NCBI GenBank assembly: GCA_002687275.1
Contig: NYZT01000043.1
Location: 1-38,452, forward strand
DNA from: Candidatus Woesearchaeota archaeon
GTDB taxonomy: Archaea > Nanobdellota > Nanobdellia > Woesearchaeales > ARS49
Direction of reading: 5' to 3'
Length of the DNA: 38,452 nucleotides
Part shown: positions 6,963-18,101 of the stretch, one piece after another
Layout of the letters: every line of letters begins with the position of its first letter
Numbering within the stretch: position 1 is the stretch's first letter
Notes under the pieces: generated by a model
The model's database searches: none
The model's input: the letters and a program-made list of their open reading frames with translations, nothing else
Told to the model about the DNA's origin: nothing
Program-made: the position numbers and the translations under genes

Positions 6963-7007
6963 CTCGTAAGATTTAAAAAGGGCTCACCCTATTATTAGTT
7001 ATTCTTT

Positions 7008-7082
7008 GCCCCTGTAGTGTAGTCCGGCCAAGCATGCTGCCCTTTCGAGGCAGCGACTCGGGTTCAAATCCCGGCGGGGGCA
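7008..7082 (+). tRNA. tRNA-Glu(UUC)
   Basis: Cloverleaf: acceptor GCCCCTG/CGGGGGC, anticodon arm CTGCC-CTTTCGA-GGCAG, T arm TCGGG-TTCAAAT-CCCGG, discriminator A; CCA not encoded. Confidence 0.95.
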
Positions 7083-7084
7083 TT
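7069..7084 (+). repeat. att-like direct repeat copy 1 (tRNA-Glu 3' end) TCCCGGCGGGGGCATT
   Basis: Within and just past tRNA-Glu; identical to 16374..16389. Confidence 0.85.
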
Positions 7085-7160
7085 GTACCTTTCAGTAACA
7101 TGAATGGGAAGTTTTTTAAATGTGGTAGTCTCGACTAAGTCTAGGATTGGGAACAATAAC

Positions 7161-8174
7161 ATGGTAGACTTACACAAGAGCAAAGAAGCACTACAGAACC
7201 AGAAAGCAAGCATCAAGGATTTTCAAAAGCTTAACACGCAGAACTACAAGCTTCTTCTTTCATGGCTTAATGAGTGGGAAGAACGAAGTCTGAGTAGAAG
7301 GGGTCACACTCCTGATGCCAAAGTGCGAATAGCTAAGACACTTGCCAAATACTATCAGATATCTAAACAACTCATGCACTGGTTCAAAGACGTTGACATA
7401 TCCAAGATGGACCGAGAGCAAATGATTACGATACGCGATGACATCCACACTCTAAAGAACCCGCTTCCATTAAGCGACAAACATAAGCGTAACAAGAGAA
7501 AGAAGCTCAGCCAGAACACTATCCACGACATCTATCGTAAGGTTTTGATTGGAAGCAAGGGAGTTTTTTATCATGTTAGTCCACATCAACATCTTCTTGC
7601 TAAAGAAATATTCCAGATAGACCAGCGAACCGACAAGGAAGTAGATGACATAAGCATGGACGACATTAAGAAAATGGCAAACAGCGCAACCTTACCTCTA
7701 CACAAACTTTGGTTGTGGTTGTTGTTTGATCTGGGAAGTAGACTAAGCGAAACACTGCTACTAACGAGAGGGGCAGTCACAACCACAGAGACCGGTAAAG
7801 GGAGACTTAATTATGAAGTAACGCTGAAAGGGTCAACAACAAAAAGCCAGCAAAGCATGTCCTCTCATTTGATCCATCAAGAAGTTATCGATCTGTTGCG
7901 ATGGCACTTAGATAATCTCGATCGCGATCCGGACACTACTGATCGCACACGCTTGTTCAGCTTTTCTCCAGCAATGGGGGAGAAAGTAATACGCACGCTC
8001 AGCACGCGATCAGGAGTACTTGCTAAACCTACAAAGAAACAACCTACACCGCACACCATTCGTCGGAGCAACGCTCGGTACTTGTACGAAAAAGATTACG
8101 GTCTAGAAGAGATAAACACAAGACAAGGAAGACACCCAGCCAAGCAAAACTCTCATGCCGCACCTGTTTCGTAA
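7161..8174 (+). CDS. Tyrosine recombinase / integrase (C-terminus possibly truncated or frameshifted)
   Basis: Box I LGSRLSETLLLTRG and box II PHTIRRSNARYL (HxxR); no clear catalytic Tyr in frame before the stop. Confidence 0.85.
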   Translation: MVDLHKSKEALQNQKASIKDFQKLNTQNYKLLLSWLNEWEERSLSRRGHTPDAKVRIAKTLAKYYQISKQLMHWFKDVDISKMDREQMITIRDDIHTLKNPLPLSDKHKRNKRKKLSQNTIHDIYRKVLIGSKGVFYHVSPHQHLLAKEIFQIDQRTDKEVDDISMDDIKKMANSATLPLHKLWLWLLFDLGSRLSETLLLTRGAVTTTETGKGRLNYEVTLKGSTTKSQQSMSSHLIHQEVIDLLRWHLDNLDRDPDTTDRTRLFSFSPAMGEKVIRTLSTRSGVLAKPTKKQPTPHTIRRSNARYLYEKDYGLEEINTRQGRHPAKQNSHAAPVS

Positions 8175-10221
8175 CAACCCAGCCATTCTTTATGTAGGTA
8201 GACAAACGCCTTTGAACTTGTGGCAGGCTCTTGCCTAACAGCTTGATCATTTCGGTTTTCACACGCGCAATGCTAACCTTACTGGACCTTTGATCCAGTG
8301 CTCCCTGTTGTTCCAGCCACTTCAATACGGAAACATCTTTTCCTCTTGCCCCCTTATAGGTTTCTCCGTAGTCCAGATCGCCTATCAATTTGTCTTCTAG
8401 GTACATCAATGTGTGCATAAAGATCTCGTACAGGTCTATCCCTGCATGTAGTACGTCAACACAGGATACTTCGGGGTTTTGCTCTTCGTTCCTAGCTACC
8501 GCACCTAGGAAGGAAAACCTAACCAGATGTTCCTGTAGTTGCCAGCCAACCATGGAAGCATACGCCGAGCTTTTCTTTCCAAAGCTCTGCGCTACACTAA
8601 GCAGGTGTTCGTGAACCGTGGCCATAAGTTCAACAGTGTCTGGTGCTGTACGAACCTTTGTTATATCTGGCTCAGTGTTTATTCGCATCATTAACTTGCT
8701 GAGAAACGTTGTGAACTCTGCGCTTCCTGTTGTTGCCTTTTCGTCTGTTTCCATAAAGCGTGCGCGGTAGTCTTCCTTTTCAATGCGCAAAGCAGGGTTG
8801 TATCCGACAAGGAAACGTCTGAACAAACCACTCTCGACGATCCGCGGTTCGAAGTTGTGCGGTTGCGTTAACAAGGTGAAACTTGTATCAGGGTTGTAAG
8901 CCAGTATTTCTGTTGCAGTGTGTTCTGTTAGTCTTTTCACGATTTGGTTTTTGTGAACTGGGTTGAGTGCTGTGCGCATGTATTTCTGGATTTCTAACAG
9001 TCCAGGGCTTCTTCTGTCGGCTTCTAATAGTTCTCTGCACTCGTCGATGAGTATGGCGCAGCTGTCAAAGTATCCCTTGTTAGGTATCCAATCTGGTTTT
9101 TTCTTGCTTCCTCTATTGATCATTTTGCCCACGAATTGTTCGCTATGGTAGCTTGTTGGGATGCTTACGTTCCCGAGTTTTTCTGCTTGGGTTTTGGTCT
9201 CGTACATGAAGCTGTTTTTTCCCTGGCCACTTGGTAGGACGATGAGTATGTTTGTGCGGCAGTCTGTCTCTAGTCTTCCGAGTTTCAGAACTTTGCGTCT
9301 TTGGGTAATTCCTACTGTGTGATACCACTGTAGTTTGATGAGCGGTGCGAAGCCTTCACCTAGTAGGTTGAGAGCGTCGTGTAAGTTTTGGAAGCAAGGT
9401 AGGTGACCTGTTTTGTATTGTAGTGTTGGCATCTCGGAAAGGTCTCTGGGTTCCTTCTTATCTTCCATCACTTTTTGGGGTGTGTCCAAAGTAATGTTGG
9501 CGCTTTTCGCTAGTGCTAGTTTGGCAGTTATGAAATCACAATTGTGTAGCTTCATGTATGCGGTAAATACATCGCCGCCCTGGTCGCAGTGGAAGCATTT
9601 CCATAGGCCCTTTGTGTCGTCGAAGCTAAGGCATTGACCACCTTTACTACCATGCCATGGGCACCTGGTGGGGTTCTTGCTCGTGTCGATCCCTGCGTCG
9701 GATAGAATGGTGGATAGCCTTGTTTTGTTTTTGATCTGTTGTACTACTAGATCTTTGTCGTGGAAGTTCGCAACGTTTGTTTTTACGTCGTCTTTCCTCC
9801 AAGGGCTGAAGGCTGCTTTGATTTCTCCCATGGAAATCTTTGCGATAGGTATGTCATCTACAACAACATACTTATTGCCATTAGGGTGCGTGCTTCCTGG
9901 ACCTATGACTTGTTTCTTTGGTCCTTGAACATCGGCGAGAGTGTCGTGCCCTTCTGTTTGTACCTTAACGTTTTCTGGGTTATCTACCACAAAGTACTTG
10001 TGCGACAAACCACCACCCGTCTTCACCGTGAACGTTGGTGGTAACTTCAGGATTACTTTTTCTTGAACCTCTGCATTATCAAAGTCAACAGCGACAAGGT
10101 TGGCTTCTCCCGTAACCACGCCGTAGTTGCCCCCTTCGCCTTCTGCCACGGCATGGCGGACTAGCGCGCGTATGTCTTCTTCGTTGCCAAACGATCCTAG
10201 GGGGATTGCTAATGTTCTCAT
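8044..10221 (-). CDS. PrimPol (AEP)-zinc finger-ATPase/helicase replication protein
   Basis: AEP motifs VAVDFDN, TGGGLSHKYF, DVQGPKKQVIGPGSTHPNG; CHC2-like CPWH..CFHCDQGGDVFTAYM; Walker A LPSGQGKN, Walker B CAILIDE. Confidence 0.88.
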   Translation of the reverse strand: MRTLAIPLGSFGNEEDIRALVRHAVAEGEGGNYGVVTGEANLVAVDFDNAEVQEKVILKLPPTFTVKTGGGLSHKYFVVDNPENVKVQTEGHDTLADVQGPKKQVIGPGSTHPNGNKYVVVDDIPIAKISMGEIKAAFSPWRKDDVKTNVANFHDKDLVVQQIKNKTRLSTILSDAGIDTSKNPTRCPWHGSKGGQCLSFDDTKGLWKCFHCDQGGDVFTAYMKLHNCDFITAKLALAKSANITLDTPQKVMEDKKEPRDLSEMPTLQYKTGHLPCFQNLHDALNLLGEGFAPLIKLQWYHTVGITQRRKVLKLGRLETDCRTNILIVLPSGQGKNSFMYETKTQAEKLGNVSIPTSYHSEQFVGKMINRGSKKKPDWIPNKGYFDSCAILIDECRELLEADRRSPGLLEIQKYMRTALNPVHKNQIVKRLTEHTATEILAYNPDTSFTLLTQPHNFEPRIVESGLFRRFLVGYNPALRIEKEDYRARFMETDEKATTGSAEFTTFLSKLMMRINTEPDITKVRTAPDTVELMATVHEHLLSVAQSFGKKSSAYASMVGWQLQEHLVRFSFLGAVARNEEQNPEVSCVDVLHAGIDLYEIFMHTLMYLEDKLIGDLDYGETYKGARGKDVSVLKWLEQQGALDQRSSKVSIARVKTEMIKLLGKSLPQVQRRLSTYIKNGWVVTKQVRHESFAWLGVFLVLCLSLLDRNLFRTSTERCSDEWCAV

Positions 10222-10222
10222 A

Positions 10223-10296
10223 TGGACCTGCCGGGATTTGAACCCGGAGACTCACCCAAGCCAAGGGTGTGTGATACCAGATTTCACCACGGGCCC
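10223..10296 (-). tRNA. tRNA-Ala(GGC)
   Basis: Cloverleaf on minus strand: D arm GTGA/TCAC, anticodon arm CACCC-TTGGCTT-GGGTG, T arm CCGGG-TTCAAAT-CCCGG, G3:U70, discriminator A73. C6/A67 mismatch and U37 are atypical. Confidence 0.75.
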
Positions 10297-10335
10297 GTAT
10301 GAGGCTAGGATGGTGGGCTGTTTAAAAATGTGTCT

Positions 10336-12192
10336 TCATTTGCTTTTCATCTCCCAGCTGCCATCCCAGTCCTTTCCTGGAGGATTCTTTTTGAAGACCT
10401 TGCAACGTTCTATCATTGTTTCAGCAGTGGTATCCTTCTGCAGGTGTAGGGCTTTTTGGAAGCCTTTAATGGCTGCGTCCCATTGTTGTGCTTTGTAATA
10501 GTCAAGAGCTTTCTCAAACTCCTTCACAAAGGGTTGTTTGTTCTTGCATTTTGCTTTTTCTGCTATTAACTCAAAGATTTCAATCGCTTCCTTCTTTCCT
10601 TTGACCTTTACAAAATCTAGCGGCCTGGTGAGGTACTTGTGCTTGACGTGCTTGTTTGTGTGCTGTGAGATGATGATGTGCGTTCCGTATTGTTTGTTCA
10701 AACCTTCTAATCGCGATCCTAGGTTGATGGTGTCCCCCATGGCGGTGTAGTCGAAGCGCTCATGGCTTCCCATGTTGCCAACGATAGCATCGCCAGTGTT
10801 CAAACCAATACCTATATCTAGGGCTGGCACACCTTCTTTTGTCCACTTCTTTTGCAATCTCGCAAGTTCTTCCATCATTTCCAGGCTGGTCTCGCATGCG
10901 AGCTCTGCATGTTGTGCTTCATCAACAGGGGCGTTCCAGAAGGCCATGATGGCGTCCCCCATGAACTTGTCCACGCAGCCTTTGTTTTTCAACACGATGG
11001 AAGTCATGCTGTCTAAGTACTCGTTGAGTAGGTGCACCAGATCTTCTGGACTGAGCGCTTCGGATACGCTGGTAAATCCGCGAATGTCTGAGAAAAACAC
11101 AGTAATCTCTTTTCGCTCCCCTCCTAGCTTTAACTTTTCTGGACTGCTGACTAAGTCGTTTACTAAATCTTTGGATACGTATTTTCCAAACGCTTGTTGT
11201 ATCTCGCGACGCTTTTTTCCTTCCACAAAGTACAAGTGTGCAGTATTCATAACTGTGCTGACGATGACGCTCAGCTCAAAATACAAAACGGGAAGCACTG
11301 TTCCCTGCTCAAAAGTTAGTATAGTCAGCCAGGGAAGTATGAGAATGAGGAGGGCCACAAGCACTGCTGCAACCCAGTAGGAAAAGTACCATGTTATCGC
11401 AGTCGCTATTCCTGTCAGTACGATGATTCCTGCTAGTGTGCTAGGGCGAGATAATGGGTAGAGGTAGTTCGCTTGCAACATGGTTTGGATTGCGTTTGCG
11501 TGCACCTCAACACCGGGCATGGCTTTTCCTTCTGAGGTGGGAACGAGATAGTCATCGTGGAGTCCTGGGCTGGTAGCGCCGACAAGGACTATGCGATCTT
11601 TAACGTTGATCTTTTTACTGAGGAGGTCTTTTGCAGAAACGTACTCAAAGCTTTGTGGAGGCCCTACGAAATTGATGAGCATACGTTCTGGAGGATACGC
11701 CTGATAGCCTGCTTGCCGCAGTATCTCTACCGAGAAGGGGATTCCCAGGTCTGTCTTTATGGCTCTCGTAACCTTATCGCGGTCAGTGATGACGTTCACG
11801 TAGCCGTGGTTTGCGTTGGCTCCTATGAGGGGTGTTGCTTGGAGCAACTGGTCTTGACTATGCTCTTGCGCCAAAACGACATGTGCGTTGGAGATTGCTT
11901 CTGCCAACTCATGATCTTGGTTTGAAGGTTCGTAGAACCCTATGTCTACGCCTGTCACGCGTGCTTCTTCCAGCTGGGTGATGAGTTTGGCGGTCAGGTT
12001 GCGAGGCCACGGCCACCTTCCAAGCTCTTGGAGACTGGGGTCATCAATGGCTACGATGAGTATGTTCTGAGGTTGTATACCTCCATGCAGGTTGTCTGTT
12101 ATTTTTACTTCGATGTTTGAGAACGCGCCCACCAGGAAGAGAAAGCATACCAACGCGCACCCGACTATGGGCACTAACGGCGAGTGCTGCAT
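10336..12192 (-). CDS. CHASE2-domain class III adenylate/guanylate cyclase
   Basis: N-terminal CHASE2 (ILIVAIDDPSLQELGRWPWPR), TM segments, cyclase motifs FFSDIRGFTS, CVDKFMGDAIMAFWNAP, DYTAMGDTINLGSRLE. Confidence 0.95.
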   Translation of the reverse strand: MQHSPLVPIVGCALVCFLFLVGAFSNIEVKITDNLHGGIQPQNILIVAIDDPSLQELGRWPWPRNLTAKLITQLEEARVTGVDIGFYEPSNQDHELAEAISNAHVVLAQEHSQDQLLQATPLIGANANHGYVNVITDRDKVTRAIKTDLGIPFSVEILRQAGYQAYPPERMLINFVGPPQSFEYVSAKDLLSKKINVKDRIVLVGATSPGLHDDYLVPTSEGKAMPGVEVHANAIQTMLQANYLYPLSRPSTLAGIIVLTGIATAITWYFSYWVAAVLVALLILILPWLTILTFEQGTVLPVLYFELSVIVSTVMNTAHLYFVEGKKRREIQQAFGKYVSKDLVNDLVSSPEKLKLGGERKEITVFFSDIRGFTSVSEALSPEDLVHLLNEYLDSMTSIVLKNKGCVDKFMGDAIMAFWNAPVDEAQHAELACETSLEMMEELARLQKKWTKEGVPALDIGIGLNTGDAIVGNMGSHERFDYTAMGDTINLGSRLEGLNKQYGTHIIISQHTNKHVKHKYLTRPLDFVKVKGKKEAIEIFELIAEKAKCKNKQPFVKEFEKALDYYKAQQWDAAIKGFQKALHLQKDTTAETMIERCKVFKKNPPGKDWDGSWEMKSK

Positions 12193-13209
12193 CTACCTGC
12201 GTACGCTCCCATTGTCAAACTCTGTGCGCACTTTTTTGTCGAGTGCTGCCTTGACGGTCGTGTCATTCTTATGCCTTTGAGTGGGGAACGTTTGCGTAGG
12301 TCGTACTTTGTCAGTTTCTTGTTGTAAAGGTGTTGTGGCATGGGGTGCTGTTCTTGAGAGGAAGGGTGTTTTGTTTTTGGGCCGTTGCTCTTTTGTGACA
12401 GGACGCTTTTTTGCATTTCCTTGTCTTGGTTGTGTTGTAGATATTATTTTCTCTTTGCTCACGTTGCGTGAGGCCTCCGTGCGAACCGTTGTGCTGTTTC
12501 GAAATTTTGGTGGTTGTGTGTTGCTTTTTGTCTCGCTCTTAAGGGTTTGATTTTTTCTTTGCGGTTTTGTGCGTTCTTTCTTTGTTGGCTCTGGTGATCT
12601 GCGTTCTGGGGCTTTCTTTCTTTTGTGAATTTTGTCTTGTAGTCTTCTTACTGTTTGCACGTATTGCTGAGTGTCTTTTCTTTTGGAAACGAGGTGCTGC
12701 TGTTCTTCCACGCTGGTCAGTTTGCGTTTAACCCGTCTCTGTTTTTTGGAGGTGATTACTTTCTCATGTTTTCCTATGACTATCTGGGATTCGTTGGTTC
12801 GTATACTCACGTTGCCCTCCCCTACGAGAATGGTGGCGGACTGATTGACGACGACTACCTCAAACTCGGTTCCTCTGACTGCTGCAACCGAGTAAGGGTT
12901 TTCTACTTGGTACGTAGTCGCACCTACTGTTGCTAAATACTTGTGCCAGGTCGTACCTCTGTCTTGGTACCAGTGAACGTTATGCAGTTCTAGTAAGGAC
13001 ACGTTGGTGTAAGGATCAACGTGGACAAGTGCTCGGCCGGGTATGGCTACCTTTGCAGTACCATTAAAGGTTTGGATGTTACGGACGGTGTTGTTGGTGA
13101 TGGGTGGTGAGCCATCTGCCAACACCTCGCCTGAAAAATCTAGTAAGATCGCATCTTGCGTTATGGTCGGGGCACAAGCGACTAGCATGAGGAGGAGAAG
13201 TTTTTTCAT
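12193..13209 (-). CDS. FecR-domain lipoprotein with basic low-complexity tail
   Basis: Lipobox-like LMLVAC; FecR-like NPYSVAAVRGTEFEV; long K/R/T/Q-rich C-terminus. Confidence 0.85.
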   Translation of the reverse strand: MKKLLLLMLVACAPTITQDAILLDFSGEVLADGSPPITNNTVRNIQTFNGTAKVAIPGRALVHVDPYTNVSLLELHNVHWYQDRGTTWHKYLATVGATTYQVENPYSVAAVRGTEFEVVVVNQSATILVGEGNVSIRTNESQIVIGKHEKVITSKKQRRVKRKLTSVEEQQHLVSKRKDTQQYVQTVRRLQDKIHKRKKAPERRSPEPTKKERTKPQRKNQTLKSETKSNTQPPKFRNSTTVRTEASRNVSKEKIISTTQPRQGNAKKRPVTKEQRPKNKTPFLSRTAPHATTPLQQETDKVRPTQTFPTQRHKNDTTVKAALDKKVRTEFDNGSVRR

Positions 13210-14063
13210 TCTAGTTGGGCACGAGCCTCTCTGATTTGTTCGGTGATGGCTAAGATTTTATCTAGAATTTCTGATTGGATGGGTGCGTCTTTCTTTATTT
13301 GTTCAGGATCAAAACTTTCTGCCTCGTCGTGTTCGTTAAAGGAAGCTTTTATTTCGTCTTCAGTCACGCCAAAGCGTTGTTTGAACACGTTGAAGGCAAC
13401 GCTGTTCTTACGCAACTCGTTCCATCTCATTTTCTTTAGCGTGGTGACATGCACTTCTAACTCTTTCTTGAGCCTTTCAAGATCTTCTGGTGTGGGGTCC
13501 GATTGAACCAGTGTGCTGTCTTTTAATGTGTATTTTTCCAGACTGCCCACTTCAACACGTTCTTCTTGATGCTGGAAAGAGACCTTGCCTTCTAGGACGA
13601 TGATTTGGTCGGGGGAGACTTGCTGTTCCCATGTCGTTCCCCTTACCGCGGCTACGGTGTTAGGTGTTGTCGCTTTGTAGTTTTTCATTCCGGTAAGGCC
13701 GGTGAACTTGTTCCATGTTCTCCCTTGCGTGTGTTGTACTTCCACGTTCTCTGGCGATATGGAAGAAATGCGTAGTTCGCTGTCGCTGTCGAGTGTTACT
13801 ATCATACTTTCTCTTAGTACGATGATGGCGCGACCTTGGCCTGTTTTCACCACTTCGTTGACCTTCAGGCGCATCCCTTGTACTGCGGTGATGGTCGTGC
13901 TCCCGGTAACTATAGAAACGTCTCCGTCTACAGAAAGCAGTAGGGCGTCGCTGGTGCTGCTCTTCGTGAGGCCTGAGTACGCCATCAGTCCGCCTACCAA
14001 GATGAGTAATGCGATAATGCCTCCTACCACGCCAACTTTAGAAATGCCTCGTCCCATACGCAC
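13206..14063 (-). CDS. FecR-domain membrane protein
   Basis: N-terminal TM; FecR-like LLLSVDGDVSIV..TTPNTVAAVRGTTWEQQ; stop overlaps next start by 4 nt; TATA ctttataag upstream. Confidence 0.85.
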   Translation of the reverse strand: MRMGRGISKVGVVGGIIALLILVGGLMAYSGLTKSSTSDALLLSVDGDVSIVTGSTTITAVQGMRLKVNEVVKTGQGRAIIVLRESMIVTLDSDSELRISSISPENVEVQHTQGRTWNKFTGLTGMKNYKATTPNTVAAVRGTTWEQQVSPDQIIVLEGKVSFQHQEERVEVGSLEKYTLKDSTLVQSDPTPEDLERLKKELEVHVTTLKKMRWNELRKNSVAFNVFKQRFGVTEDEIKASFNEHDEAESFDPEQIKKDAPIQSEILDKILAITEQIREARAQLE

Positions 14064-14130
14064 CCTCTTGGCGCGGTTCTTATAAAGTTTGTTGTGTGTT
14101 TGCAGAGTGGTACTAGGCGGTGCTTAAACG

Positions 14131-14340
14131 TTACTGAATGTTGGCAAGGTTTTCCAGTCCGCCACGTTTGAGCCAGAGTTGTTTGAAGGCGTCCGCGCAA
14201 GTGATGGATCTTTTAGGCTCGATGGTGGTTTCTGCAACGCTTTCTGCTAGGCTTTCACCGGCTAAGGCACAACAACCTATACGGACACCCAATTGTATGA
14301 ATATGTCAGGACAACCAATCATTACTACACAAGAAAACAT
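14131..14340 (-). CDS. Hypothetical small ORF (weak)
   Basis: 69-aa ORF, no clear promoter, overlaps the opposing ORF at 14293..14577. Confidence 0.25.
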   Translation of the reverse strand: MFSCVVMIGCPDIFIQLGVRIGCCALAGESLAESVAETTIEPKRSITCADAFKQLWLKRGGLENLANIQ

Positions 14341-14577
14341 GTTAGTACCTACAACGCTGACTTTCTGAAAACATTCCGGGCATTAAAGGAGAAAGAGCTT
14401 ATCGTGAACAGCAAGGTACTGTGGAGCGCCAGAAGTGCAAAGAAGTACCGGCTCACTTGGAATATTCCCTTAGATGTTCTGACAAGCACGGGAATGCTCC
14501 ACACTCTTGGAGCTATAGACGAAGACCAGAGAGCTGCAACAGTGCGCAACAGTTTAGCCAAAGTATTATACAAATAG
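14293..14577 (+). CDS. Hypothetical ORF, possible gene remnant (weak)
   Basis: 94-aa ORF just upstream of the att-like repeat at 14645. Confidence 0.3.
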   Translation: MYEYVRTTNHYYTRKHVSTYNADFLKTFRALKEKELIVNSKVLWSARSAKKYRLTWNIPLDVLTSTGMLHTLGAIDEDQRAATVRNSLAKVLYK

Positions 14578-14644
14578 GACCAAAGCACTTTTGGTGTTTT
14601 CTCCAGGATAACTTCCCAAGTGCCTTACTGATCGGTTAGAAGTC

Positions 14645-14657
14645 CGGCGGGGGCATC
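14645..14657 (+). repeat. att-like direct repeat copy 2 CCGGCGGGGGCAT
   Basis: 13-bp identity to 7071..7083, preceded by a degraded T-arm-like tcggttagaag. Confidence 0.75.
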
Positions 14658-14664
14658 GAGCATA

Positions 14665-14680
14665 TTTGATCGGTTCCCCA
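14665..14680 (+). repeat. Left arm of subterminal inverted repeat ATTTGATCGGTTCCCC
   Basis: 15/16 match to the reverse complement of 16349..16364. Confidence 0.7.
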
Positions 14681-14739
14681 GAATGTTGTTACTCAAGGAG
14701 GGATCCGTGAGCGAGTAAATAATCACATGATTGTTTACT

Positions 14740-15669
14740 CTAAGGGCAAGCGTTGTTCGCTCTAATGAGATTTCCCCACAAGAAGGGCGCTCCATAATCC
14801 CTTCCCGGTATTAATGAAGTGGCCACACCTTGATAATTCGTTACTTGAATGTCCACGAAGCCAGATTCTTGTAGGACTTCAGCCAATCCATCCGTAACCT
14901 GCCAATTCCAAAATTTCAATTTCTTCTGAACAAAATGTTGAAATGCGTGCTGGTACACGCGGTCTGGTGTTCCAAGGGCATCATTAATACTCCTAACCGG
15001 TGGCGTCCCTATAGCCCCACGTAAAGGCGCCTTAAGAAAGATGTCAAACAAATAGGAAGTTAGTTTAAATTCTTCGCCGGTGGCCACAGGGCTCCGCGCG
15101 TCTGCGATTTCAATGCTGGCCCCAGGCTTCAGAACCCTTCGGATCTCATCAAAGGCCGCAACTCGTTCTTCTGGGTCAATCGCGCCAGGCCCAAAGAACC
15201 ACACTGCGCCATCGTACGTGGCGTCCCTTGCGGGAATATCCATAACACTTCCTTGTTTTGCTGAGTATTTGTTGGAGACGCGTGCTCTCGCAGCGTTTTT
15301 TATTGCTCGTTCTACCATTCTTTTTGACACATCAATTCCGTGAACGTGGCATCCTGTCTTCTCTACAATCGTGATCCCTGTGTAACCGGGCCCGGTTCCA
15401 ACATCAAGCATTAAGCGTTCACTTGATCTGTGCCTTCGCATGCTTCCCGCAATCTTCTCTCTAAAAAACCAATCAATTCCACATGTGTCCCGTCCATGAT
15501 TGTGATCATACTCCGAGAACTCTCCGAAGATCTTTAGCCTTTTTCTGTTTCTAACCAATAGACTGCGGAGGAATCCTATGGAACCTGCTTGACTGTCGTA
15601 AAATTTCTTATGATTCTCGACGCTATTTTTCATTGCTGATACTGCCATTTTCCTATATTCAATCTGCAC
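14740..15669 (-). CDS. SAM-dependent class I methyltransferase
   Basis: Motif I LMLDVGTGPGYTGI, HGIDVSKRMVERA, FDEIRRVLKPG; TATA gtttatatgg upstream; start may be GTG 15669 or ATG 15648. Confidence 0.85.
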   Translation of the reverse strand: MQIEYRKMAVSAMKNSVENHKKFYDSQAGSIGFLRSLLVRNRKRLKIFGEFSEYDHNHGRDTCGIDWFFREKIAGSMRRHRSSERLMLDVGTGPGYTGITIVEKTGCHVHGIDVSKRMVERAIKNAARARVSNKYSAKQGSVMDIPARDATYDGAVWFFGPGAIDPEERVAAFDEIRRVLKPGASIEIADARSPVATGEEFKLTSYLFDIFLKAPLRGAIGTPPVRSINDALGTPDRVYQHAFQHFVQKKLKFWNWQVTDGLAEVLQESGFVDIQVTNYQGVATSLIPGRDYGAPFLWGNLIRANNACP

Positions 15670-15829
15670 TCCCCATATAAACCCCTACATCTACTCCGGA
15701 AGGTACAATTATCTAATTATTTATCGGGGAAATCTAAAGACCAAACTCTGCCACCTTTGCGGGGGTATGGGTTGTTTACTCACGCCATCATCCTTGAAAT
15801 CCTGTTCGCGGGGGAACCTGTCGAACGGC

Positions 15830-16096
15830 TTATCCGTACGCGGACTCTCTGTGGTCTATGGCGCCCAAGGTCACTCTGTGTGCGGTTTCGTCAATCTTGA
15901 AAAGCAAGCGGTACTTCCTGACGAGGCGCGTGGATCGCCAGCCGTGGAGTTTACCTGATAACTCTCCGCCAACAGCGTGCGGATCTTTGATCAGCCGTAG
16001 GATTTTCTTGTCCAACACGGCGAGCAACGCAGCGTTTTTCTTATGTTCTTTGAGTGTTTGAAGAAACGTGTCTGTTCTGTGGACGTCCCACATCAC
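15830..16096 (-). CDS. RelE/ParE-superfamily toxin
   Basis: 88 aa: LDKKILRLIKDPHAVGGELSGKLHGWRSTRLVRKYRLLFKID..IDHRESAYG pattern typical of RelE/YafQ-like toxins. Confidence 0.85.
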   Translation of the reverse strand: MMWDVHRTDTFLQTLKEHKKNAALLAVLDKKILRLIKDPHAVGGELSGKLHGWRSTRLVRKYRLLFKIDETAHRVTLGAIDHRESAYG

Positions 16097-16311
16097 ATCT
16101 CCGCGAGCAGGTCCTTAACGCTCTTTATCTGCTTGGTGCGCCCTTCCTTGATATCCTTCTCACTTGCCTTGACTTGCTCCATGGTTTTCTCGTTGCTAGA
16201 TATTTCCAGCGAGGCCAGAACGCTTGCTAGCTCTTCCTTAGAAACCATGTGCTTCTTTATCTCTGTGAGCTCCCTTTGCAGGTCTCGAACAGTAGCCTCG
16301 GTCATACACAT
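16093..16311 (-). CDS. Cognate antitoxin
   Basis: 72 aa, charged/helical, directly upstream of the toxin with 4-nt overlap. Confidence 0.75.
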   Translation of the reverse strand: MCMTEATVRDLQRELTEIKKHMVSKEELASVLASLEISSNEKTMEQVKASEKDIKEGRTKQIKSVKDLLAEM

Positions 16312-16348
16312 GCAATATTTTCCAGATTCTTAAAGGTATCGTTCATCG

Positions 16349-16364
16349 GGGGAACCGAGCAAAT
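16349..16364 (-). repeat. Right arm of subterminal inverted repeat GGGGAACCGAGCAAAT
   Basis: 15/16 complementary to 14665..14680. Confidence 0.7.
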
Positions 16365-16373
16365 CCGATCGGG

Positions 16374-16389
16374 TCCCGGCGGGGGCATT
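16374..16389 (+). repeat. att-like direct repeat copy 3 TCCCGGCGGGGGCATT
   Basis: 16-bp identity to 7069..7084. Confidence 0.85.
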
Positions 16390-16690
16390 AAACAGTGATT
16401 TCCTTCTCAGCTCCCTTGATAAGATTCCAATCTAGTTTGATGAGTTGTTTTACTGCAGGGTTTTTGGTGTTTAGTTTGAAAAGGTCAGACTTTCCCACTC
16501 TCCGTGTTTTGATGACTATGTTGTTCTTTTCGAGCCTGTCCCAGAATGTTTGCATGGTGGAGTAGCTCACCCCAGATTTTTTGGCAATCTCAGTTAATGG
16601 ATAATCAAACAATTGGTAGGTTATCAAAAAGTCAAGCACTTTGATTAACGGAGACTTTCCGAACACTTCTGCAAAGATGCTTTCTGTCAT
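16388..16690 (-). CDS. Winged-helix DNA-binding protein
   Basis: MTESIFAEVFGKSPLIKVLDFLITYQLFDYPLTEIAKKSGVSYSTMQTFWDRLEKNNIVIKTRRVGKSDLFKLN; TATA catttaaatac ~28 nt upstream of ATG 16690; stop codon abuts att copy 3. Confidence 0.75.
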   Translation of the reverse strand: MTESIFAEVFGKSPLIKVLDFLITYQLFDYPLTEIAKKSGVSYSTMQTFWDRLEKNNIVIKTRRVGKSDLFKLNTKNPAVKQLIKLDWNLIKGAEKEITV

Positions 16691-16715
16691 GATACTACTA
16701 CTAACTATCCAGTAT

Positions 16716-16764
16716 TTAAATGTTTCTATCAATGTTTCAAAATTGCAATAATAGAAACATTTAA
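16716..16764. promoter_or_regulatory. 14-bp perfect inverted repeat over divergent promoters (candidate operator)
   Basis: TTAAATGTTTCTAT (16716..16729) and ATAGAAACATTTAA (16751..16764); arms overlap the TATA boxes of both divergent genes. Confidence 0.8.
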
Positions 16765-16788
16765 TAAGGCTAAAATCCTCGCCTTCGT

Positions 16789-17052
16789 ATGGATGAAGAA
16801 ATCAAAGCTACTATTCTGTATCATCTCAGAAGGAAGAAGATACTTGGAGGGGTGCATACTCATTTTGACACTATAAAGAAAGGATTTCCAGGGCATCTCG
16901 GGAAGGATACTACAAAGATGGCAAAAGAATTGATCAAGAAGGGTTGGTTGCTCACCAAGTCAACCTCTTATGGGCTCCAAATATCATTAAACAAGGCCAA
17001 GCTTTCAGAAATTGACGTGTTCATTGAGAAAGTTCTGGACTTCAAATTCTAA
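16789..17052 (+). CDS. Small winged-helix-like protein
   Basis: 87 aa MDEEIKATILYHLRRKKILGGVHTHFDTIKKGFPGHLGKDTTKMAKELIKKGWLLTKSTSYGLQISLN; TATA ~25 nt upstream. Confidence 0.7.
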   Translation: MDEEIKATILYHLRRKKILGGVHTHFDTIKKGFPGHLGKDTTKMAKELIKKGWLLTKSTSYGLQISLNKAKLSEIDVFIEKVLDFKF

Positions 17053-17077
17053 GCCACATGTACCTTTTTGGTCAGAG

Positions 17078-17091
17078 CCCGGCTGGGGCAT
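17078..17091 (+). repeat. att-like direct repeat copy 4 CCCGGCTGGGGCAT (distal end)
   Basis: 13/14 identity to the tRNA-Glu 3' end. Confidence 0.7.
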
Positions 17092-17118
17092 CTTTTTAAG
17101 GCTTTCGTGGCTTACGAA

Positions 17119-17487
17119 TCTATGATTGATGAGGAAGCTATTAGGCAGCGTTATGCTCGTCGTGCAGCAGCAGAAATAGTTTATTTGCGAAATGAGGGGC
17201 TTGTTCCTGAGATCTATGCAGAATTTGAACGCAGGGGTTTTGCCAAGAACGAGTCTCTTTTCCAAGGAGGTTTTCCAAATGTTGCGATGGGCGCTGTTGA
17301 AGTGACGGCCATACCCTTTCATAGAGGGGTAAGAATTGACGTGGATAAACCTCTTGGGCCTCCTGACGAAATCTTCCGTGTGGTCGGGACTACAAAAGAC
17401 CAGCATCTATCTGCTAAAGAATCCATATGGGCGACCCCAGAAAACTGGATGGGCGCTGTTGACAGAGCAGCTGCGCTAGTGGCTTAG
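17119..17487 (+). CDS. Hypothetical protein
   Basis: ORF from ATG 17119, TATA ctttttaagg about 25 nt upstream. Confidence 0.65.
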   Translation, partial: SMIDEEAIRQRYARRAAAEIVYLRNEGLVPEIYAEFERRGFAKNESLFQGGFPNVAMGAVEVTAIPFHRGVRIDVDKPLGPPDEIFRVVGTTKDQHLSAKESIWATPENWMGAVDRAAALVA

Positions 17488-18017
17488 CATCGTCTGTTCA
17501 ACGCTTCCAAGATCGGTCTGAGGGTTAGATTGCCTACATAGTTGAGTCTTCTATAGAACTCGAAATTCCTGACCACCTCTCTCGCTTCCTCAGGATCTAC
17601 CTTGGTGAGCACGTGGAAGTCTATGGTGCAGTCATCGCACTTGACCCTTGTGTTTACTAGTCTTCCCAGCACCTTTGGAATTCCAAGATCCCAGGTTTCG
17701 CCATCTTCCTCTATATTTACACTTAACTTTCCAGCAAAGTTCTCGTTAAGATGTGCTGCCGCCTGTTCATCCTCTGCTTCAGGCTTTCCCCCGTAAAACG
17801 TCTGGAGGGATTCGTACACTTCTTGTGGCAAGGGGGCTGGGTCATGGACTAGGTATTCTTTATCACGACCCATCTTAAAAAAATAGCTCTCGAGGAGTCT
17901 CCTGTCAGAAACCCTGTGAGGCGGTATGCTAACCGTGTGCCAATGATGCCTAGAGATGGCAACACGGCCTAGCTCTTTTCGGTACAGACAAACCCCGATA
18001 ACCTTTTCTCCTGGCAT
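17484..18017 (-). CDS. Hypothetical protein
   Basis: 177-aa ORF, good coding character, convergent 4-nt overlap with 17119..17487. Confidence 0.7.
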   Translation of the reverse strand: MPGEKVIGVCLYRKELGRVAISRHHWHTVSIPPHRVSDRRLLESYFFKMGRDKEYLVHDPAPLPQEVYESLQTFYGGKPEAEDEQAAAHLNENFAGKLSVNIEEDGETWDLGIPKVLGRLVNTRVKCDDCTIDFHVLTKVDPEEAREVVRNFEFYRRLNYVGNLTLRPILEALNRRC

Positions 18018-18101
18018 TACAGCAGGGTAGCGCTCGAAAGCTTATAAATTTTTCCAGCTCGAACCCACCATCCTTATAAAGGTGTTGTTATTTAAAGGTA
18101 C

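Follow-up and report, generated by a model that had tools for sequence, protein, structure and literature searches.

Additive genomic islands have been described at tRNA genes in Methylophilaceae, Alteromonas and Actinomarinales; these islands are bacterial, occupy one or a few tRNAs per genome and carry metabolic or envelope cargo (PMC10872708; PMC4119200; PMC7771536), and in the Methylophilaceae they range from 330 bp to 42 kb (PMC10872708). Among Archaea, the cryptic integrated elements of Thaumarchaeota are 2.6–98 kb long, have the integrase as their most conserved gene and use tRNA 3′ ends as targets, with short repeats (median 17 bp); tandem arrays are known for integrated elements in general (PMC6563490). 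The defining features of archaeal integrons are IntI and attC, and the main text describing them has no mention of tRNA (PMC9668308).

The window, the whole stretch of 38,452 nucleotides analysed here from a Candidatus Woesearchaeota archaeon (genome G000), contains a tRNA-Glu(TTC) gene (about 7007–7083, + strand; ARAGORN and Rfam) that is the target gene of the locus, its 3′ end being the unit of a direct repeat. Copy 0 lies within the tRNA (CCCGGCGGGGGCAT, 7070–7083), and copies 1 (TCCGGCGGGGGCAT, 14643–14656), 2 (exact, 16 nt, 16374–16389) and 3 (CCCGGCTGGGGCAT, 17078–17091) follow, all on the + strand. The first-pass annotation had correctly read TCCCGGCGGGGGCATT as exact at 7069–7084 and 16374–16389 and had placed the CCCGGCTGGGGCAT copy where we find it; its copy of CCGGCGGGGGCAT is also present, one base away from the position given (14644–14656, not 14645–14657). 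At two mismatches or fewer, the window holds four matches to the tRNA-Glu 3′-end repeat against 0.13 expected, a number reached in none of 100 shuffles, and only two near-exact copies (C3 and C29) exist elsewhere in the whole 1.09-Mb genome; the repeat is thus not common outside tRNA contexts. The periods between copies, 7,573, 1,732 and 703 bp, correspond to units 1, 2 and 3, in agreement with the three unit sizes first proposed, except that the length and content of unit 1 are unreliable owing to a block 99.9% identical to another genome. Past copy 3, about 975 bp more (17092–18066, no strand assigned) precede the point where chromosomal synteny resumes; this segment is missing from the congener, and a closing repeat for it was looked for and not found.

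Unit 1 (7084–14642, + strand) is the integrase-bearing element. It has att-type direct repeats at both ends (7070–7083 and 14643–14656) and a left arm (7087–7113, + strand) matched at 70% by an inverted right arm (14610–14636, − strand); these ends look genuine. A tyrosine recombinase gene (7104–8174, + strand) does follow the tRNA, with an in-frame ATG at about +78, close to the start first assigned to it, but the ORF begins at 7104, about 20 bp past tRNA-Glu, and is truncated. It stops after GRHP, ahead of the catalytic Tyr, and lacks the WRYLRI tyrosine of a 444-aa relative on contig C1 of the congener Candidatus Woesearchaeota ETNP7_MAG_72 (G001), to which it is 96% identical and which keeps GRHPQSKELWRYLRI. 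The catalytic set of an intact recombinase (R, K, HxxR, H and Y) is therefore incomplete in unit 1. The unit descends from an element encoding a tyrosine recombinase, and the copy left in it is broken; no intact copy of the window integrase was found in G000. The 444-aa type is a remote phage-type integrase (PHROG_216, E = 4e-6) with a Pfam score below the cut-off. For the integrase, no viral relative was found in IMG/VR and no meaningful match among solved structures.

The interior of unit 1 includes a Prim-Pol/CHC2 primase ORF (8044–10221, − strand), whose 3′ end overlaps the integrase truncation and whose first ~32 codons belong to a block (10126–14291) 99.9% identical to contig C8 of G001, containing a tRNA-Ala, a CHASE2 cyclase and two FecR genes. 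A 94-aa ORF without a Pfam match (14293–14577, + strand) occupies the right end of the unit. The block shows three differences from C8 over 4,166 bp, one of them right at its edge, compared with about 80% identity elsewhere, and both of its joints fall inside genes, with no homology, shared sequence or repeat at the joints. On this sequence evidence it is likely to be an assembly chimera or a very recent transfer, which is why the length and content of unit 1 cannot be relied on. The tRNA-Ala(GGC) in the block (10223–10296, − strand; ARAGORN and Rfam) is a second copy, the genome's own being on C48; we considered and then rejected it as an element boundary, given its position within a stretch identical to another species' chromosome. 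Both G000 and G001 are MAGs or MAG-like drafts, and the window has at least one suspicious joint.

Unit 2 (14657–16373) is an integrase-less member of a genus-specific family with conserved ends. Its left end (14657–14741, + strand) consists of CGAGCATATTTGATCGGTTCCCC and the palindrome GAGTAAATAATCACATGATTGTTTACTC, and its right end (16346–16373, − strand) is an inverted match to the left one. Between them, all on the − strand, are genes for an S-adenosylmethionine (SAM)-dependent methyltransferase (14740–15669; PF13649, 9.5e-18), a ParE/RelE-type toxin (15830–16096) and a 72-aa protein overlapping the toxin start (16093–16311), a putative antitoxin by position only, with no Pfam match. An element at a tRNA-Arg, whose cargo is a pentapeptide-repeat protein, has about 85 bp of left end and about 40 bp of right end in common with unit 2, and G001 has a third relative behind a tRNA that contains an intron; each member of the family bears the tail of its own tRNA. 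Among 353 genomes of the order, the left-end pattern occurs three times, each directly behind a tRNA end, and the unit-2 ends were not found outside the genus.

A palindrome, TAAACAATCANNTGATTGTTTA, recurs near element ends and in a few other places in both genomes (window 14713–14741; L010 3925–3951; L065; L061; L066). The tRNA-Glu tail copy on C3 of G000 (16826; L011 about 11501) has no tRNA gene; by reading of the sequence it lies upstream of an apparent RadB/RecA-type gene, and a degenerate unit-2 left end follows (74% over 72 bp). On C13 of G001 a similar tail, TCCCGGCGGGAGCAT, is found near a RadB-like gene.

Unit 3 is a divergent HTH pair, comprising a gene for a MarR-like HTH protein (16388–16732, − strand), whose stop codon overlaps repeat copy 2, and one for an 87-aa protein (16789–17052, + strand) that is the partner of the HTH gene in all cassette copies. 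Homologous pairs are present behind tRNA-Ile and inside an element on C16 of G001, with 38–48% amino-acid identity between unit 3 and the other copies; a third HTH pair stands behind tRNA-Glu(CTC), where the bounding copies have 2–3 mismatches. The three free-standing HTH cassettes measure 703, 705 and 701 bp, the stop codon abutting the repeat in each, and the cassette in the window is reversed relative to its homologues. The early claim that the small units carry no integrase is borne out.

On either side of the array, the congener has the same chromosomal flank, with roughly 70–85% identity. Behind its tRNA-Glu is only a 564-bp unit, encoding a RelE-type toxin and a partner and closed by TCAAATCCCGGCGGGGACA; a separate 4.25-kb contig of G001 begins with the same 77-bp tRNA-Glu, followed by the integrase, and looks like an alternative occupancy in the population, a binning error being possible. 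Exact empty sites were identified in both directions: at A73, tRNA-Ile, G001 is empty and G000 has 1,465 bp in two units (760 + 705 bp), and at the C46/C15 tRNA G000 is empty and G001 has 655 bp, both sites starting at the first base past the tRNA. At the C5/C8:6788 tRNA both species have the distal toxin unit, but next to the tRNA one has a unit that by sequence reading is SET-domain-like and the other a unit that is methyltransferase-like; entry of new units beside the tRNA would give this arrangement. The tRNA-Glu site is thus occupied in a relative with the same flanks and different cargo, and the region is not shared as a syntenic whole of constant length. The differing cargo, the pattern at other tRNAs and the exact empty sites agree with the original proposal of serial units that regenerate the tRNA end.

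The last 13 nt of 74 tRNA genes in G000 and G001 were searched within 10 kb at up to one mismatch. Downstream on the same strand there were 20 matches in 580 kb, against about 0.35 expected for random sequence by our own arithmetic; the controls gave one upstream match in 388 kb (another tRNA gene) and one antisense in 968 kb. Of the 20, 15 are distinct copies 0.5–9.3 kb away and three lie at 41–63 bp; the remaining two are a genuine second tRNA-Thr gene and a match counted twice. In a third genome, from another genus, 13 downstream matches were found versus none upstream and one antisense; most of these belong to short units rich in hairpins that look different from the cassettes. Repeat length sometimes reaches 20–25 nt, with 24 nt at tRNA-Ile and about 20 at the tRNA-Glu of G001. 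Relatives have integrases just behind tRNAs, and a tRNA-Glu array in another genus combines an integrase unit with a 670-bp unit.

Cassette cargo consists mostly of toxin-antitoxin or HTH genes, a descriptive statement, as the queries were drawn from the units themselves; other units encode RelE-, HigB- or PemK-type toxins, or a MazE-type antitoxin. No recombinase gene was detected in the cargo of integrase-less cassettes (DDE and serine types lay outside the search). At C1:35095 of G000 (L137) a toxin and its partner start directly behind the tRNA 3′ end, and no second repeat was detected there. Many tRNAs are followed by short tandem units of 25–147 bp, rich in hairpins and closed by a tRNA-tail copy (L184, L183, L181, L187, L176, L113, L193; L135, L134, L063), some holding an inverted T-arm copy; they may be excision scars, structured att sites or RNA hairpins.

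Serial insertion at tRNA 3′ ends is well supported by these observations. We consider it probable, on the sequence comparisons above, that the window is one of many tRNA-anchored cassette arrays formed by serial insertion through a tyrosine recombinase that may act in trans. Separate units would have been inserted one after another at the tRNA-Glu 3′ end, each insertion leaving a tail copy of ~13–16 nt, so that the tRNA stays whole. Units 2 and 3 would be non-autonomous cassettes (methyltransferase plus toxin-antitoxin, and HTH pair) of families also present behind other tRNAs. A tyrosine recombinase like the intact 444-aa relative may join the tRNA end to the cassette end and may act in trans on the integrase-less units, whose persistence the toxin-antitoxin cargo may favor. 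Such mobilization in trans is plausible; a tyrosine recombinase is favored because integrase-bearing and integrase-less units match in repeat size and place, because the repeats sometimes reach 20–25 nt and because Cas1 is absent. Against this explanation, the window integrase has no catalytic tyrosine and an intact copy was not found in G000. Because the tails differ from tRNA to tRNA, a single enzyme serving all of them would need relaxed specificity; the reversed HTH cassette and the draft state of both genomes, with a suspicious joint in the window, also count against it.

Target-site duplication is a less likely alternative, suggested mainly by the inverted ends in the unit-2 family and by the reversal of the HTH cassette: a transposase or casposase-like enzyme could recognize tRNA tails and duplicate ~13–14 bp, the unit-2 ends then being true terminal inverted repeats. 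In unit 2 and both of its relatives the inverted ends are conserved, yet the tail is that of the local tRNA; repeats are often sharply ~13 nt; and the HTH cassette occurs in both orientations, which target-site duplication accounts for at least as well as fixed-core recombination does. However, shared inverted ends are missing from most other cassettes and were seen in the unit-2 family only, the longer repeats at tRNA-Ile and at the G001 tRNA-Glu are as expected for att identity blocks, and integrase-bearing units have repeats of equal size and place. No Cas1 (casposase) gene was found in G000 or G001, on which ground membership among the casposons is rejected. With Cas1 as the transposing enzyme searched for, transposition is an unlikely reading here, and insertion by a tyrosine recombinase is preferred. 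A Woesearchaeota-dedicated, genome-wide system, in which tRNA tails would serve as universal docking sites for shared integrase-less cassettes of one or two genes, moved in trans by an enzyme of relaxed specificity, is a doubtful extension that we raise tentatively.

The stacking of compact cassettes of one or two genes, with abundant toxin-antitoxin cargo, behind one anchor also recalls an archaeal integron, in which an integrase adds attC-bearing cassettes, and the short hairpin units with tRNA tails in relatives would suit it. The repeats, however, copy the tail of the host tRNA itself and vary from one tRNA to the next, and the recombinase matches phage-type PHROG_216 (Pfam and PHROGs searched); the cargo is similar, the repeats are tRNA tails, and the integron reading, which we regard as very improbable, is rejected. 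It is just as hard to credit that the entire 7–17 kb pattern is an assembly artefact. The 10126–14291 block, 99.9% identical to the chromosome of another species and joined within genes without a repeat, speaks for it, but neither units 2 and 3 with their repeats nor the chromosomal flanks on either side are part of that block, and the pattern recurs independently at many tRNAs in several genomes, with clean empty sites. For units 2 and 3 an artefact is already contradicted.

Woesearchaeota have very small genomes, and gene exchange in them is poorly known. One main route by which these archaea acquire genes would be the gathering of minimal toxin-antitoxin cassettes at tRNA tails, and a simple repeat test would then detect mobile cassettes. 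It would then have to be asked which enzyme mobilizes the recombinase-less units. The docking-site system, if true, would be a functional analogue of the integron, spread over many tRNAs.

Casposons have inverted ends, target duplication and tandem insertion (PMC4046053; PMC6563490), features that these arrays, with inverted ends in the unit-2 family, may share, but here Cas1 is in neither genome and no shared polymerase or nuclease genes were seen in the cassettes. Archaeal integrons likewise have small cassettes with frequent toxin-antitoxin cargo (PMC9668308), whereas here the anchor and repeats match tRNA tails in place of attI and attC. The thaumarchaeal elements are also archaeal, with tRNA 3′-end targets and short repeats; the cassettes described here are smaller and without an integrase. 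Additive islands share with the present locus tRNA-anchored cassettes between recurring 3′-end copies and a content that varies among close relatives (PMC10872708; PMC4119200; PMC7771536), and here too insertion is at a conserved tRNA with a repeated 3′ end, with content at the same site differing between G000 and G001. In contrast to those islands, many tRNAs of a small archaeal genome are occupied, mostly by integrase-less units of 0.5–2 kb rich in toxin-antitoxin and HTH genes. What is distinctive is the compactness, the toxin-antitoxin/HTH cargo, the lack of recombinases and the simultaneous occupation of many tRNAs in a reduced genome; the closest known kind is the bacterial additive tRNA island, of which this is an unusually compact, toxin-antitoxin-rich archaeal variant.
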